DNA of 30,800 nt from a virus: positions 1 to 30,800 of IMG/VR virus record IMGVR_UViG_3300020472_000112; one strand, given 5' to 3'. Below, in pieces: positions 9,696 to 21,540 of the stretch. A program made the translations under genes and the position numbers. The number at the start of each line of letters is the position of its first letter. Position 1 is the first letter of the stretch. Under the pieces are notes generated by a model that was given only the letters and a program-made list of their open reading frames with translations, had not been told where the DNA came from and did no database searches.

Positions 9696-9962
9696 ATGTC
9701 AGAAATCAAACACGATTTAGACCACGAAGTTTACTTAGATCCAAAGGATCATAAGGAACATGTTAATCATGGAATGTTGGAGTACACCGAAGCAGATCTG
9801 AAAGATGTTCATGCAGATTATGATAAGTATCATGAGGGTGATGTAGTAGACAAGAATGATGGTGCAATCAATGACTATCATACAAGACATCAAGATCAAC
9901 ATCTTGAAGTGTATTGTGATAACCATCCAGATGCCTTTGAGTGTAGAGTATACGACGAATGA
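9696..9962 (+). CDS. small His/Asp-rich conserved protein before gp5
   Basis: An 88-aa acidic protein with eleven His, many Asp and two Cys, without a hydrophobic core segment. It ends CDNHPDAFECRVYDE, where two Cys bracket a His. A strong ribosome site AGGAG (9686-9690) sits five bases before the ATG, and its stop overlaps the gp5 start (ATGA), so it is clearly expressed with the hub genes. The pattern VYLDPKDHKEHVNHGMLEYT looks like one I associate with cyanophages, where it is uncharacterised. Metal binding is plausible from the composition; a role at the spike is suggested only by position. Confidence 0.85.
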   Translation: MSEIKHDLDHEVYLDPKDHKEHVNHGMLEYTEADLKDVHADYDKYHEGDVVDKNDGAINDYHTRHQDQHLEVYCDNHPDAFECRVYDE

Positions 9963-14713: not shown

Positions 14714-16828
14714 GTGGCAATATTCCACACATACATTGATGATTCTACTCCTGGTGGAGAGGATGCTGTCGCTGGTATAGGTAGTGACACTCTTTATGGT
14801 GTATTTGCTAGTCGAGATTTTAAAGTTACTGGAATAAGTACATTCAGTGGTAGTACAGAATTTGAGAAGGTAAAACATTTAAAGGATAGTACTGGAGACA
14901 TTGGAAATTCAGGTCAGATACTTTCTTCTACTGGTTCTGGAATTGATTGGATAAATTCCAATACTACTACTGTTAATGCTGCAAGTAATGTAGGAGTCAA
15001 TGAAGATTCAACTGATGCTGAACAATGGTTAACATTTGTTGGTGCAAAGAGTGGTAATAATCCAATTAGAGCTGATGACGATTTAAGATATAATCCAAGT
15101 ACAAATGTTCTTTCTGTTAAAGGTATCACTTTACCAGGTGATGATCAAAAGATATCAATAGGTGCTGATAATCCATTAGAGATTAAGCATGACTTCACTT
15201 CAGGTCAAGTAGAACTTAAGTCTGATGCTATTATCTCCATAATGAGTGGAAATAGTGTTGAGATTGAAGATGAGAGTGGTGGTAATATTGCTAGATTTGT
15301 TAAGACTACTGGATGTGAGTTATATCATAGAGTTGATGGTGCTGGTGTAGTAAGACTTGCAACCAGTGCTGCAGGAGTAACGGTAACAGGAACTGTTAGT
15401 GCTACTACATTTAGTGGAGCATTAACAGGTAATGCATCTGGTTCTTCTGGATCTTGTACTGGTAATGCTGCTACTGCAACAGCACTTGCTACAGCAGTAA
15501 ACATTGGTGGTGTGTCATTTGATGGTAGTGCTGATATTACACCAGGAACTGCTGGTGGTCTAACTGGAACCCCAGATATTGAAGTTACAGATATAGACAT
15601 TGCAGGATCTCTGACTGACAAAAATGATATCACAGGTACTGCTGGACAGGTTCTAACATCAACGGAAACTGGTGTTGCATGGGCAAATGCAGGAACTCTT
15701 GCAGCAGGAGCAGCAGCACAAGTAGCAGTTGGTAATGAAGTAACTGATACAAGTTGTTTTCCTGTATTTGGTATAAAAGCAACTGGTTCTGATATTGCTC
15801 TTAAAAGTAATGCTGGTTTAAAATTTGATTCTTCTACTGCTGCATTGGAAGCAGGATCATTCGTAAAGACTAGTGGAACCTCATCAGAATTCTTAAAGGC
15901 AGATGGGTCTGTTGATACTAGTACATATCTATCTTCACAAGTTCAGAGTGATTGGGATTCTAGTACTGCACCTGCTGCAATATTAAATAAACCTACATTA
16001 TTTTCTGGAGCATATGGTGATTTAACTGGTAAACCAACTTTAGTAACTGCTTTTACAGGACTATCAGATACACCTGGTACTTTTATTGCAAGTAAGTTTG
16101 TTGCAGTTAAATCAGATGGAACTGGTCTGGAGTTTGTCAATAATCCCAATACTGATAACCAAAGAGGAATTGATACTACTCCAGTAGAGAATGAATCAAC
16201 AGAATCAATTAGTTCTGGTTGGGCTTATGATCATAAGGAACTTGAAGGTAATAGTGCTCATGTTCCTGCAGCAGGAACTGGTAATGGAGGTAAATTCTTA
16301 GCTAATAATGGTAGTTGGCAAACTCCAAGTTATACTACTAATACTAATACAACTTATGGATTGCATTGTACACAGGATGCTGCTGGTAGTAATTCTTCTG
16401 ACAATGATGATCCATACTTATGGTTAAATGCTTCTTCTGGAACTGATGATTCTGTTAAGATAGTCGGTGGAAATCATGTTGTTGTAACTAGAGATAGTGA
16501 TGAGCAACTTACCATTTCTTCACTACCCACAAGCAGTGTAACTCTTTCTGGTACTAGTGCTCAGACTGTTAGTACAATTGCTTTGAGTGCTGCTTATTGT
16601 TCCGAATTTACTATGCATATTACACACAGTTCAAGCATACAAGCATGTAAACTTTTAGTTATGGATAATGGATCTACTCCTTATTGTACTGAATATGCTG
16701 TGATGTATAGTGGATCTTCTCTCGGATCATTTAGTTGTACTACTAGTGGTAGTAATATTCTTGTACAGTTTACTCCAGCTAATAGTGGTACAACAAGTGT
16801 TAGATTTATTACTCAACAGGTGACTTAA
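14714..16828 (+). CDS. tail fibre-like structural protein
   Basis: A 704-aa protein starting at GTG; the first in-frame residues (AIFHTYIDDSTPGG) look like a true fibre N-terminus. It consists of short repeated fibre modules: IGNSGQILSSTGSGIDWI (about 72-90), GVTVTGTVSATTFSGALTGN (about 223-242), TAGQVLTSTETGVAWANAG (about 310), EFLKADGSVDTSTYLSS (about 395) and FTGLSDTPGTFIASKF (about 446). The C-terminal 130 residues form a separate beta-rich Ser/Thr domain with several Cys. This is typical of trimeric phage fibres, which place a receptor-binding domain at the tip. It heads the fibre cluster, with a late-promoter-like element upstream and the protease gene four bases downstream. The exact fibre type is unknown. 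Confidence 0.8.
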   Translation: MAIFHTYIDDSTPGGEDAVAGIGSDTLYGVFASRDFKVTGISTFSGSTEFEKVKHLKDSTGDIGNSGQILSSTGSGIDWINSNTTTVNAASNVGVNEDSTDAEQWLTFVGAKSGNNPIRADDDLRYNPSTNVLSVKGITLPGDDQKISIGADNPLEIKHDFTSGQVELKSDAIISIMSGNSVEIEDESGGNIARFVKTTGCELYHRVDGAGVVRLATSAAGVTVTGTVSATTFSGALTGNASGSSGSCTGNAATATALATAVNIGGVSFDGSADITPGTAGGLTGTPDIEVTDIDIAGSLTDKNDITGTAGQVLTSTETGVAWANAGTLAAGAAAQVAVGNEVTDTSCFPVFGIKATGSDIALKSNAGLKFDSSTAALEAGSFVKTSGTSSEFLKADGSVDTSTYLSSQVQSDWDSSTAPAAILNKPTLFSGAYGDLTGKPTLVTAFTGLSDTPGTFIASKFVAVKSDGTGLEFVNNPNTDNQRGIDTTPVENESTESISSGWAYDHKELEGNSAHVPAAGTGNGGKFLANNGSWQTPSYTTNTNTTYGLHCTQDAAGSNSSDNDDPYLWLNASSGTDDSVKIVGGNHVVVTRDSDEQLTISSLPTSSVTLSGTSAQTVSTIALSAAYCSEFTMHITHSSSIQACKLLVMDNGSTPYCTEYAVMYSGSSLGSFSCTTSGSNILVQFTPANSGTTSVRFITQQVT

Positions 16829-16832
16829 TAAA

Positions 16833-18866
16833 ATGATTGGTACTGAATCTACTGGTGGAACTACACCAGTTATAAATTATACTCCTCAAGCTATTGATGA
16901 GTATATTGTAGTTGTTAACTTACCAGAAGATTGGGAAACCGTTCATTATTATATTATTAATGAAAATGAAATAGATGGGATACCAAATAGAAAGATAGAT
17001 TGTTCTAATGCACAAGAATTTTCATTGCGAACTGCAATCTATGAGATGAGTGCTGCAGAAGCAGATATTTTAAAGACACATGAGAAGGTAGAGTGTGTTG
17101 AATTAAATCCTGATAAGTATCCACAACCAGTGGATAATGATGCCAATAGGTTCAATAAACTTGTTGCATTTAATAAACCTATTATACCTGCCAATATGTT
17201 AGGTAATGCTTCTACAGTGCATACAAATGGAGTTCGTTCAAATTGGTCAATGTTGAATGTGGGTGATCCATCAAGTGAACCATATCAGGGTGAAGGAATT
17301 AATATTGTTGATACTGTTGATCGTGACTTGGAATATGTTGTTACTGGAAGTAATGTTGATGCAGTTATTATTGATAGTGGTGTGAGTGTTTTGCATCCAG
17401 AATTTTTAAAAAGTGATGGAACAACTAGAGTAAGAGATGTTATTCTTGATGGGCCAATGTTAGTGGATCCAGCTGCATTTAGTGGATATACAGGGAGTGT
17501 AACTATAGACGGTGTTAATATTGGTACTCGTGCTCAAGAAGCAAGAGCACGTTCTTGGTGGTCAACTACTTCAATAAGGTCTTCTACATTTCAAAGTCTT
17601 GGTACTGCATCAATAAGTTCTAGTTATACAAGAATACATGCACACAGTAAAAATGGAACTAATGCTATGACAAGTGGACATGGAACGGCATGTGCATCAC
17701 AAATTGGTGGAAAATCATTTGGATTGGCATTTGAATGTAATTTATGGGGTATAAGAATTAGTTTTGGAGACGGGTTTATATCTGCTTCAACTGCATTAAA
17801 TGTTTGTACGATATTTCATAATGCTAAAAAAGCATTATCATCTGATCCTGATCCTACACTAATAAACAATAGTTATGGTGTTACTAATGAAACTGCAAAT
17901 AGTAGTGGTACTACTTATTATCATACTTATAGGGGGAGTAATACAACATATACTGGTAATGATTCCAATGTAAATCCACCATCTGGTTCTGGTGGATTGA
18001 GAAATCATAAGTATTTTACATATTATTCAGGTACTTCACCTACATATAACGCATATGGTGGAACTGGTCAGTATATGAATTCTGCTTCTACTACTAGTAG
18101 TGCTGCAGAAAATGCCATTGCTGCTGGATGTATTGTTGCTGCATCTGCTGGAAATAGAAATATGAAGATATCAGATAAAAATGATGTAGATTTTAATAAC
18201 AAATATTATGGAACAAGTTCTTCATATTCTGGAGGTTCTTATACTAATCGGGTTGGTGGAGTTCAGAAAGGATTTTCAGGTGACCATGATCAGGGTAAAG
18301 GAACAATTAGGGTTGGTGCAATGGATTGTGCTGTGGAACCTGCTGATGAGAAGCAAGGTGCAACTGCGTATAGTATGAGAAAGGTTTGTTATTCTTCAAA
18401 TGGCCCAATGGTTGATATTTTTGCTCCTGCTGAAATGAGTATGGCAGCAGGATACGCATCAGGTGAAAGTTATGCAAGATCAGATGATAGTAATTATTAT
18501 GATAGATGGTTCAATGGAACAAGTTCTGCAACTCCAAATGCTTGCTCTGTTATAGCACTTTATTTGGGTGTAAATAGATCTGCAGATCAAAGTGCAACTA
18601 GATCATGGTTGACAGGAACAGCATGTAAAACTAATTTACTATCTGATCCTTATCCTGGTGTGAATGATACTGGTTATTGGTCTCTTAATTATAACGCTTC
18701 AACTGATTCAGCAAGTTTAAATAGATCTTATAATTTTCGTGGTAATGGTAATTTGAGAGGTGCTCCAAATCGTACATTATTTAATCCATATGAATCTGGA
18801 ACAGCAACTGAATACACATTAACTGGACCATTAAATGTTACTGGTTCATTAAACATTACAACATAA
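16833..18866 (+). CDS. subtilisin-like serine protease (S8) with fibre-type C-terminus
   Basis: A 677-aa protein with all subtilase signatures. Asp181 lies in VIIDSGV, His283 in SGHGTACAS, the oxyanion Asn441 in ASAGNRN and the nucleophile Ser564 in FNGTSSATPNA; LINNSYG matches the substrate-binding strand. Residues about 20-100 (EYIVVVNLPEDWE, then MSAAEADILKTHEKVECVEL) look like an inhibitor I9-type propeptide. The spacing from Asp to His (102 residues) shows a large insertion. There is no signal peptide. The end (LTGPLNVTGSLNITT) is a tail-fibre motif also found in the next gene (ITGDLNVTGS). A virion-bound enzyme that trims fibres or attacks host surface protein is inferred; the protease fold itself is clear. 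Confidence 0.92.
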   Translation: MIGTESTGGTTPVINYTPQAIDEYIVVVNLPEDWETVHYYIINENEIDGIPNRKIDCSNAQEFSLRTAIYEMSAAEADILKTHEKVECVELNPDKYPQPVDNDANRFNKLVAFNKPIIPANMLGNASTVHTNGVRSNWSMLNVGDPSSEPYQGEGINIVDTVDRDLEYVVTGSNVDAVIIDSGVSVLHPEFLKSDGTTRVRDVILDGPMLVDPAAFSGYTGSVTIDGVNIGTRAQEARARSWWSTTSIRSSTFQSLGTASISSSYTRIHAHSKNGTNAMTSGHGTACASQIGGKSFGLAFECNLWGIRISFGDGFISASTALNVCTIFHNAKKALSSDPDPTLINNSYGVTNETANSSGTTYYHTYRGSNTTYTGNDSNVNPPSGSGGLRNHKYFTYYSGTSPTYNAYGGTGQYMNSASTTSSAAENAIAAGCIVAASAGNRNMKISDKNDVDFNNKYYGTSSSYSGGSYTNRVGGVQKGFSGDHDQGKGTIRVGAMDCAVEPADEKQGATAYSMRKVCYSSNGPMVDIFAPAEMSMAAGYASGESYARSDDSNYYDRWFNGTSSATPNACSVIALYLGVNRSADQSATRSWLTGTACKTNLLSDPYPGVNDTGYWSLNYNASTDSASLNRSYNFRGNGNLRGAPNRTLFNPYESGTATEYTLTGPLNVTGSLNITT

Positions 18867-18883: not shown

Positions 18884-20989
18884 ATGGCAACCAAGGCATT
18901 TGGAGTAAAAGAATTAAAGATAGATGGTAGTGGTACTCCTACCATTGAGAGTCCTAGTGGTGGAAATCTTAATTTAACTGCTGCGACTTCTATATTCAGT
19001 GGTCATATTTCATTGGGGGATAGTAAGATAATTAAATTGGGTGCAGCCCCAGACATGTCTATATTTCATGATGGTACTAATGGTAGTATAAATGTTGCGA
19101 CTGGTTCATTAACAACTCGTGTTAAGGATACTGCTGGTAAGGGATTTTACATAGAAGATCCTAATGGTGGTACTGCTCAGACAATAGCAAAGTTTGAGAA
19201 GAACGCAACTGGTGGTGCTGGTCGTTGCGAATTGATGTATGCAGGATTAAAGAAATTTGAAACTACTTCTGCAGGTGTAACTATAACAGGAGATTTAAAT
19301 GTTACTGGTAGTGGGGGAGGAGGTGGTGGTAGTACTACTTTCATAGGACTTACAGATACTCCTAGTAGTTTTACTGCAAGTAAGATGCTTAGAGTTAATT
19401 CTAGTGGTAATGCTATTGAATTTAGTGATGTTGAGGCACTTACTATTTCTACTGCTGAATCTAGTGATGATAATAATGCATACAATATTCCATTTTTAAC
19501 TTCAACAGGTGCTGGTGGAGCTCAAAAAGGACTTCAAGTAGATAACGGTGGTTTATGGTTTAATCCAGGAACAAATTACTTTGGATGTCAGAATATTGTA
19601 CTTGGTGGTTCAAGTAATTTTGCTGGATCCATGACTGTATGGAATAGTTCTGGTAGTAAGTTTGGTCAAATAAATGGTATTGGTTTTGGTATAGGTGATA
19701 ATTCAAGTTCTACAACTAATGTTATTATAGGTCAGACTGATACTGGTTCAACTATTGGTGGTATGAATGTTGGACTTGGCTATCAGGTTTTACAGGGTAG
19801 TGGTGCTGCATCATATAATGTTGCAGTTGGTTTTCAGGCATTGATGGGTAATGATGGGGCATATAATATTGCATTAGGAGATAATGCTCTTAGTGGGTCT
19901 GGTTCTTATAATATTGGAATAGGAAGACAGGTTGGTCATCAAATAAATGGAGCCCAGTTGAATATTTTTATGGGATATCAATGTGCAAGATTAGCAACTA
20001 GTATTGGGCATTCTTTTGTTGCTGGATATAATGCTTTAGACTCCATAACGAATGGATTGATGAGTGGTCAGTCTGGAACTGGTAATAATTATGGTCATAT
20101 TGCTATTGGATACAATTCTCAAAAGGAATTTCAAGGAGTCGATGCAACTGGTTCTCCTAATATTGCAATGGGAATATTTACTTTGGAAAATAATGTTCAA
20201 GCTGGACACAATATAGCAATTGGTAATGCTGCATTGCGATATTTGGGTAAAGATATGACCAGTACCAGTAATACTGGTGGGTACGGAAATATTGCTGTTG
20301 GTACATATGCATTACAAGGTGGATATAGTGGTACTTTTAATAGCACCTCTACATTTAGAGGTGATTATAATGTTGGTGTAGGCTGGGGTGCTCTTCAAAA
20401 TCTAACAAGTTATACTTCTGATAAAAATACTGCTGTTGGGGTGGAAGCAGGTCGATACATATCGACGGGAAGTAATAATATCTGCATTGGTAATCAAGCA
20501 GGACTACAAGCTTCTCCTTCAGGTCAACTGACAACCAACTCCAATATTATTTGTCTTGGTAATGATAGTATTTCTGCTCTATATTGTGCCGATACAAGTA
20601 TATCGGATTCAGACTCTAGAGATAAAACTGATGTTGTTAACTTTACACATGGATTAAATTGGGTTAATCAATTGAATCCTGTAACATATCGTTGGGATAA
20701 ACGTACTTGGTATGGAACAGGAGTTGAAGGAGCATCAGATGAATTTTTAGGAACACCAGATGGTAGTAAAAAAGCATCTAAAGTTAACATAGGATTCTTA
20801 GCTCAAGATGTTTTGACTATTGAAGGTAATCCTAATAAAGATAATATGTTAATTGTAAATTTAAACGAAAATGAAACAAGATACGGTCTTAAATATGAAC
20901 GCCTAGTTCCCGTGCTTGTGAATGCAATCAAAGAATTATCTACAAAGAATGATGCACTCGAAGCGAGGATAGCGGCCTTAGAATCTTAA
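18884..20989 (+). CDS. tail fibre with YadA-like head repeats and S74 chaperone domain
   Basis: A 701-aa fibre. Residues 1-160 hold fibre modules (SIFSGHISLGDSKIIKLG, GVTITGDLNVTGS, a Gly6 linker, FIGLTDTPSSFTASK). Residues about 290-560 are repeats of the type YNVAVGFQALMGN, YNIALGDNALSGS, IGIGRQVG, NIAVGTYAL, like the left-handed beta-roll head of trimeric autotransporter adhesins. The C-terminus (about 570-701) is a peptidase S74 intramolecular chaperone: the SDSRDK motif with Ser576 and Lys581 as the likely self-cleavage pair, LNPVTYRWDKR, IGFLAQDV and LKYERLVPVLVNAIKEL, then a coiled coil. The chaperone drives trimer folding and is then cut off. It overlaps the oxygenase-like gene by TAATG. 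Confidence 0.9.
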   Translation: MATKAFGVKELKIDGSGTPTIESPSGGNLNLTAATSIFSGHISLGDSKIIKLGAAPDMSIFHDGTNGSINVATGSLTTRVKDTAGKGFYIEDPNGGTAQTIAKFEKNATGGAGRCELMYAGLKKFETTSAGVTITGDLNVTGSGGGGGGSTTFIGLTDTPSSFTASKMLRVNSSGNAIEFSDVEALTISTAESSDDNNAYNIPFLTSTGAGGAQKGLQVDNGGLWFNPGTNYFGCQNIVLGGSSNFAGSMTVWNSSGSKFGQINGIGFGIGDNSSSTTNVIIGQTDTGSTIGGMNVGLGYQVLQGSGAASYNVAVGFQALMGNDGAYNIALGDNALSGSGSYNIGIGRQVGHQINGAQLNIFMGYQCARLATSIGHSFVAGYNALDSITNGLMSGQSGTGNNYGHIAIGYNSQKEFQGVDATGSPNIAMGIFTLENNVQAGHNIAIGNAALRYLGKDMTSTSNTGGYGNIAVGTYALQGGYSGTFNSTSTFRGDYNVGVGWGALQNLTSYTSDKNTAVGVEAGRYISTGSNNICIGNQAGLQASPSGQLTTNSNIICLGNDSISALYCADTSISDSDSRDKTDVVNFTHGLNWVNQLNPVTYRWDKRTWYGTGVEGASDEFLGTPDGSKKASKVNIGFLAQDVLTIEGNPNKDNMLIVNLNENETRYGLKYERLVPVLVNAIKELSTKNDALEARIAALES

Positions 20990-21540
20990 TGATTAGAAAC
21001 CACTTTAGTAATGATATAAGTGATCGGATTCTTAATATTGTTGGAGATATTATTCCAACAATAAAGGGTGATTATAAGTGTTTTAATAAAACTGGTCGTG
21101 ATTGGGAGTATAATTTATCCAAAGAGTATCTTGATGGGATTCAGAAACCACTTAATGTTAGTGAGAATAAATGTTTTTTTAAATTCGATAAGGTATTAGT
21201 TAGAGATAGTTTAGTTCCTATGATTCAGGAACTGTATCCTGATAAGAAGATAAAAACCAGTGGACATTTTCATTATCCAGATAAAGGTTACATGGGTTGG
21301 CATACAAATTGTAAGAGACCATGTAGAAGAATGTATATTACATATGCATCCGAAGATAAGAAATCATTCTTTAGATATCTTAAGGATGGAGAGGTGATTA
21401 CTGATTATGATGACAAAGGAATTACTATTCGTGAATTTGATATACCTAAACCTCCAGATTATTTCTGGCATTGTGTGGGGAGTGAATGTGATAGATATAG
21501 TTTTGGATTTAGGATAAAGGATGTTTCGGAAACTAAATAG
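20989..21540 (+). CDS. 2-oxoglutarate/Fe(II) oxygenase-like protein
   Basis: A 183-aa protein with the C-terminal shape of the prolyl-hydroxylase type of 2OG-Fe(II) enzymes: SGHFHYPDKGYMGWHTN, then RMYITYASEDKKSFFRY and FWHCVGSECDRYSFGFRI. His105 and His161 would be metal ligands and Arg169 or Arg175 the 2OG contact. The usual acidic ligand two residues after the first His is Asn107 here (H-T-N), so activity or metal geometry may differ. It is coupled to the S74 fibre by a TAATG overlap and followed by a terminator, which ties it to the fibre cassette. Hydroxylation of a fibre or host protein is inferred only. Confidence 0.7.
   Translation: MIRNHFSNDISDRILNIVGDIIPTIKGDYKCFNKTGRDWEYNLSKEYLDGIQKPLNVSENKCFFKFDKVLVRDSLVPMIQELYPDKKIKTSGHFHYPDKGYMGWHTNCKRPCRRMYITYASEDKKSFFRYLKDGEVITDYDDKGITIREFDIPKPPDYFWHCVGSECDRYSFGFRIKDVSETK

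Follow-up and report, generated by a model that had tools for sequence, protein, structure and literature searches.

A predicted subtilase encoded between tail-fibre joint domains in T4-like marine cyanophages

Little is known about how marine cyanophages recognise their hosts, Prochlorococcus and Synechococcus, or how they breach them. In phage fibres, S74 is a self-cleaving chaperone within the fibre polypeptide, and gp35 of T4, which is not an enzyme, is the hinge between the long-fibre segments. Subtilases have been recorded in cyanophages: an S8 peptidase, T4-GC518, appears in P-HM1/P-HM2 in the available part of one account (PMC3037559), and the T4-GC 292 / phrog_9158 family, to which the subtilase examined here belongs, includes the records PSSM2_297 (P-SSM2), SSSM7_232 and S-MbCM7_177, annotated as “contains PF00082 domain” or as “hypothetical” with no function stated. 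Because the P-SSM2 record already annotates PF00082, the existence of the gene is not new; what is newly found here is its setting between two joints, which we call UC and DN. No description of a virion-borne cyanophage subtilase was found among the matches listed from the open-licence PMC literature, and subtilisin is not mentioned in the available portions of PMC7824862, PMC6102473 and PMC10665884. A fibre-borne protease, if the reading developed below is true, would be an unusual adsorption tool and would bring in surface proteins as barriers or receptors.

The stretch of DNA analysed (the window) comes from a T4-like cyanomyophage and makes up a linear IMG/VR record of 30,800 bases; by Pfam and PHROG matches it encodes gp32, gp53, a baseplate hub and a series of fibre genes. 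The sole S8 peptidase found in it is the 677-aa product of the ORF at 16833..18866 on the + strand, which matches Peptidase_S8 in Pfam (PF00082; E 1.5e-15; score 57.7 bits, where the curated cut-off is 21.8) and phrog_9158 in PHROGs (4.8e-61). These are its only matches at E ≤ 0.1, and no prohead protease family (T4 gp21-type) is among them; the PF00082 profile is matched at E ≤ 0.01 by 52 of 53 homologues of the subtilase. Elsewhere in the window, a small protein within the baseplate hub cluster (9696-9962) carries a C-terminal CP12 motif (PF02672, 8.3e-8), with an annotated CP12 gene, gp156, at the same place in S-SCSM1, and the product of 12816-13655 matches phrog_28536 in its C-terminal half (1.7e-42) and looks by eye like chaperone-type fibre ends.

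By tblastn the window's subtilase matched 19 of 50,697 phage records, all of them marine cyanophages or marine single-cell viruses, and further queries matched 50 and 44 phage records, bringing in a second clade whose subtilases are annotated as subtilisin-like serine protease or as hypothetical. Atu_ph07 carries a homologue, and in IMG/VR at least 559 family members are present among the 600 candidates listed. In search of a cellular origin for the subtilase, one short pattern was scanned against cellular assemblies and picked out two loci, one in a Gammaproteobacteria MAG and the other in a Pelagibacteraceae single cell; both are probably phage contigs. In some members of the family the subtilase is joined in one polypeptide to a laminin-G lectin, tail-fibre or Ig domain, and that of S-TIM54 is a fused protein adjoining the portal gene. 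This S-TIM54 product (L008:9989-16411) is a 2140-aa virion protein in which the propeptide-like part is separated from the subtilase domain by an alpha/beta-hydrolase-like stretch, recognised by eye. Cupredoxin-like segments occur inside the subtilase at two other loci (L015:9989-12442, with a weak Pfam Cupredoxin_1 match of 0.0017, and L222:4282-6851, by eye), and segments like these inserts also end other cyanophage fibre genes.

The gene was originally predicted to sit between two fibre genes, and tail-fibre PHROGs are indeed matched on both sides. The upstream gene (14714..16828, +; 704 aa) ends 4 nt before the subtilase and has a weak match to a tail-fibre family (phrog_1833, 4.5e-4); the downstream gene (18884..20989, +; 701 aa) begins 17 nt after it, matches a tail-spike family (phrog_4636, 4.3e-63) and carries the S74 chaperone (PF13884, 1.4e-8) near its end. 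This linkage is regular among homologues, with an adjacent neighbour on the same strand upstream at 85 of 93 loci and downstream at 77 of 88 (the window being counted twice through L016), and with the PHROG class tail assigned to 10 of 10 upstream and 9 of 10 downstream neighbours scanned. Beyond the downstream fibre gene, a 183-aa ORF (20989-21540) has no Pfam or PHROG match and looks by eye like the 2OG-Fe(II) oxygenases that are common near cyanophage fibre genes.

What the neighbours of closely related subtilases have in common is largely confined to the ends that face the subtilase. For most upstream genes the shared part is just the final ~105 residues (UC) and for most downstream genes just the initial ~45 (DN), the rest differing from locus to locus. 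In the window, UC is the last 105 aa of the upstream fibre (16511..16825, +; 43.7% identity over 71 aa to the upstream gene of L003, E 5e-13; alignment A6) and DN the first 48 aa of the downstream fibre (18884..19027, +; 50% identity over 46 aa to the downstream gene of L003, E 7e-8; alignment A7). Pattern searches of the distinct neighbours found UC in 52 of 67 upstream genes, leaving 15 without it, and DN in 39 of 60 downstream genes, leaving 21 without it. In most of its relatives the subtilase gene is flanked by these two dedicated joints. The window's UC has no Pfam match, and neither UC nor DN has a clear sequence match in the PDB. A gp9-like domain (phrog_677), found in 7 of the 10 downstream genes scanned as well as in P-SSM2 and S-SCSM2R, was considered as a specific partner and rejected, since a relative occurs in 335 phage records. 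The UC-bearing fibre genes of S-T4 (L012) and Sf-CH8 (L006) are annotated as flagellar hook-length control protein, apparently a misannotation.

Among the same 50,697 phage records, tblastn found UC in 18 and DN in 16, all of them within the 19 that hold the subtilase. In profile searches of four whole genomes, P-SSM2, S-T4 and S-SSM7 each had a single UC and a single DN. The fourth, S-SCSM1, had two of each, and its second pair is empty: the further UC forms the end of gp143 and is followed directly by the further DN at the start of gp142. Neither joint was found by tblastn in S-TIM54 or in the second clade (S-RSM4, ACG-2014, S-H38), whose subtilases adjoin fibre or structural genes all the same; the joint is therefore not the sole way of carrying the enzyme.

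The slot between UC and DN is exchangeable: in metagenomic phages it usually holds a subtilase, and otherwise a lectin, a propeller, a Gly-rich protein or nothing. When IMG/VR was scanned with UC instead of the subtilase, 80 loci were obtained, at which the next gene was a subtilase in 59 and DN directly in 14, one locus being too short and six having something else (one of these has an extra gene and then a subtilase, another a divergent subtilase). The corresponding scan with DN gave 84 matches on 80 loci, with a subtilase just upstream in 74, UC in one and other arrangements in nine, three of which lie behind long fused subtilase proteins and four behind lectin or propeller proteins. Altogether we collected 146 distinct UC-to-DN intervals, in every one of which UC is the end of its gene; 127 contain a subtilase, 13 are empty and 6 contain other proteins, proportions that are biased because many of the loci were fetched by their subtilase. 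The other occupants include, by Pfam, laminin-G lectins (L312, L277, L351, L265), SBBP propellers (L351, L253) and a glycine-rich domain (L164), together with small proteins, and no further protease was seen among the non-subtilase occupants examined. One phage contig carries a tandem pair of complete UC-subtilase-DN units (L282:261-7405), and at another locus a gene that is glycosyltransferase-like by eye lies between UC and the subtilase (L220:4237-5331).

These intervals bear directly on the two roles originally proposed for the protein, the maturation of fibres and the cutting of host surface proteins. A maturation protease would trim both neighbouring fibres during assembly, for example by removing UC or DN, and such a role would suit the tight gene order, the zymogen-like architecture described below and the fact that in isolate records UC and DN (18 and 16 records) always occur with the subtilase. 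However, the joint exists without a protease in the 13 empty intervals and encloses a lectin, propeller, small or Gly-rich protein in the 6 others, with no protease seen among these substitutes, and the S-SCSM1 cluster has one joint with and one without a subtilase, although action in trans is possible there. Joints without a protease and the exchange with lectins count against an enzyme confined to fibre trimming and favour one that acts at the host surface; we accordingly disfavour fibre maturation and regard it as unlikely.

The enzyme occupying the slot was predicted to be intact, and this prediction held on each point examined. Its catalytic residues lie at the expected positions, Asp181 (17373..17375, +), His283 (17679..17681, +) and Ser564 (18522..18524, +), along with the oxyanion-hole Asn441 (18153..18155, +), and none of the four departs from D, H, N or S in any of the 53 aligned relatives, so that no homologue in the alignment has a degraded triad. 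They are likewise kept in 10 of 10 divergent members drawn from both subtilase clades, that of S-RSM4 included. The alignment (A3) omits 12 of 64 distinct complete homologues as near-identical copies or long fusions; three metagenomic homologues with frameshifts (L051, L053, L060), open-ended ORFs and loci fetched as annotated regions had been removed beforehand. Ratios of dN/dS of about 0.10-0.29 were obtained in 38 of the 40 pairs listed (of 91 close pairs), all 38 having dS > 0.04, and the two exceptions have almost no synonymous change; these ratios indicate that the subtilase is under purifying selection.

An AlphaFold2 model built with the alignment of 53 relatives (pLDDT 80, pTM 0.79) was used in preference to a single-sequence model, which reached a pLDDT of 31 and was set aside. 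Its predicted catalytic domain, residues 104-653 (17142..18791, +), has the subtilisin fold (Z 33). The best VIA-align matches are of the proteinase-K type (8c4z, Z 33.4; aqualysin I, 4dzt, Z 33.1, rmsd 2.2 Å over 272 residues), and the best 17 are all proteinase-K-like at Z 31-33, a likeness that concerns structure. PCSK9 and further subtilases among the matches are ordinary fold relatives, and the nearest viral structure, itself predicted, is an S-SCSM1 “baseplate wedge subunit”. Taking sequence and model together, we regard the subtilase as complete and probably active as a protease. This weighs on a second alternative, that the subtilase fold serves only as a hinge between fibre segments, with catalysis secondary or unused. 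Its position between UC and DN would be fitting for a hinge, as would the occupation of the same slot by proteins with no known enzyme domain, but a protein used solely as a hinge ought not to keep its four catalytic residues, and their invariance in 53 of 53 relatives makes a purely structural joint distinctly improbable in our judgement.

Ahead of the catalytic domain the original prediction saw an I9-like region, a claim that the model upholds in topology and that the sequence profile bears out poorly. Residues 22-91 (16896..17105, +) run beta-alpha-beta-beta-alpha-beta in the AlphaFold2 model, the order of elements in the I9 propeptide, whereas the Pfam I9 profile (PF05922) did not match the window's own N-terminal segment and matched only 3 of 25 homologous segments, all below threshold (best E 0.015). 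The fold matches of the model mostly span residues 104-657 only. In solved chains of the proteinase-K type the mature N-termini align at model residues 101-111; since those of the mature enzymes align near residue 104, the propeptide would be cleaved between about residues 92 and 104 (17106..17144, +). Many homologues have the I9-like domain beginning at residue 1-3 in the alignment, too close to the N-terminus for a signal peptide to precede it.

At its other end the protein closes with a beta-type tail, residues 660-677 (18810..18863, +), a candidate docking tag, and a short alternating motif such as SGVNISGISFTQS, seldom met in other proteins, ends many of the subtilases. The tail had been said to repeat the fibre motif of the next gene. 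In the window it does so, the 18-residue tail scoring 46 against that gene, a score reached by 1 of 300 shuffled tails; as a general trait it does not, a match to the neighbour at p ≤ 0.05 being found in only 12% of 66 homologous tails. Repetition of the next gene's motif is thus not the conserved trait, and the notion of the tail as a copy of its neighbour, clear as it is in the window, was dropped for the family. We also rejected a docking tag general to fibre proteins, because a tail profile scored 1538 other C-termini about as it scored internal stretches or shuffles; this profile was built from the subtilase tails after they had been seen, and its match to subtilases is circular. Outside the subtilases, the lectin that occupies the slot at L312 ends in SNMTLSGISITQS, with a tail score of 19.5 that exceeds all 1515 background C-termini. 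Among seven non-subtilase C-termini from the slot, this one matches, that of L192 is marginal (11 of 1515 score as high) and five do not match. The tail thus appears to be chiefly a conserved mark of the slot's occupant, common to at least one unrelated lectin, and a docking role for it is plausible. More tentatively, and with slightly less than even confidence, we suggest that cyanophage tail fibres hold a standard tool slot, made by UC and DN, for unrelated modules, at least some of which share a docking tail, and that the subtilase version is the protein-cutting counterpart of a depolymerase tailspike. UC and DN together offer a sequence handle by which further exchangeable modules can be found in uncultured phages.

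The presence of the window's subtilase in the virion is implied by a homologue. The available part of a study of S-SCSM1 reports 45 virion proteins identified by mass spectrometry, including NMNAT, an endoglucosaminidase and a D-Ala-D-Ala carboxypeptidase (PMC9602691). The GenBank record of this phage carries 47 “virion protein” labels by our own count (16 + 14 + 0 + 6 + 11), and since NMNAT and the carboxypeptidase are labelled and several predicted structural proteins are not, the labels follow the experiment, if not exactly. Four consecutive members of the fibre cluster bear the label: gp145 (UC), gp144 (a subtilase-lectin, the homologue in question), gp143 (DN together with the second UC) and gp142 (the second DN). 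The earlier view is supported in that the subtilase is intact and conserved, has a zymogen-type layout and is linked to fibre genes, and its S-SCSM1 homologue is labelled as part of the virion. A third alternative, that the enzyme breaks down host proteins inside the cell or at lysis and merely shares an operon with the fibres, would be in keeping with the absence of a signal peptide, but it sits badly with the covalent fusions to lectin and fibre domains, with the virion label of the S-SCSM1 homologue and with the co-occurrence of subtilase and UC/DN joints, and we consider it very improbable. Without a signal peptide, the subtilase would reach the outside as a part of the virion.

On balance we lean towards a virion-borne zymogen protease that is mounted at a fibre joint and cuts a host-surface protein during adsorption. 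The subtilase would be synthesised as a zymogen in the cytoplasm of the host, where its I9-like propeptide may keep it inactive during assembly. The order of the genes suggests that it would then be mounted where the UC of one tail fibre meets the DN of the following one, its C-terminal beta tail probably helping. Once the I9-like domain was removed, the displayed protease would be active, and at adsorption it would most likely cleave proteins at or close to the host surface, much as sugar-degrading tailspikes cut polysaccharide. Existing isolates, namely S-T4, Sf-CH8, S-SCSM1, P-SSM2 and S-SSM7, are suited to testing this proposal.

Set beside the proteinase-K-type subtilases (aqualysin I, 4dzt; keratinase, 5wsl; proteinase K, 2prk), the window's protein has the same predicted catalytic fold, the same Asp-His-Ser triad and Asn, and a putative N-terminal pro-region ahead of the mature domain, but differs in being about twice the size, in its large inserts, in lacking a signal peptide, in its C-terminal beta tail and in its phage fibre setting. 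From the cyanophage proteins of T4-GC 292 / phrog_9158 it shows no difference in kind, being of the same family. It shares with the endosialidase-type S74 chaperone, present in the downstream gene, a link between proteolysis and the fibre cluster, whereas the subtilase is a separate gene; with the T4 hinge gp35 it would share, to judge from the slot, a place between fibre segments, a likeness of position. The functional analogy is with the phage tailspike depolymerases, such as LKA1 gp49 in the available part of its description, which would work alike in displaying an enzyme on the adsorption apparatus; these have an unrelated fold and cut polysaccharide, whereas the subtilase of the window is expected to act on protein.
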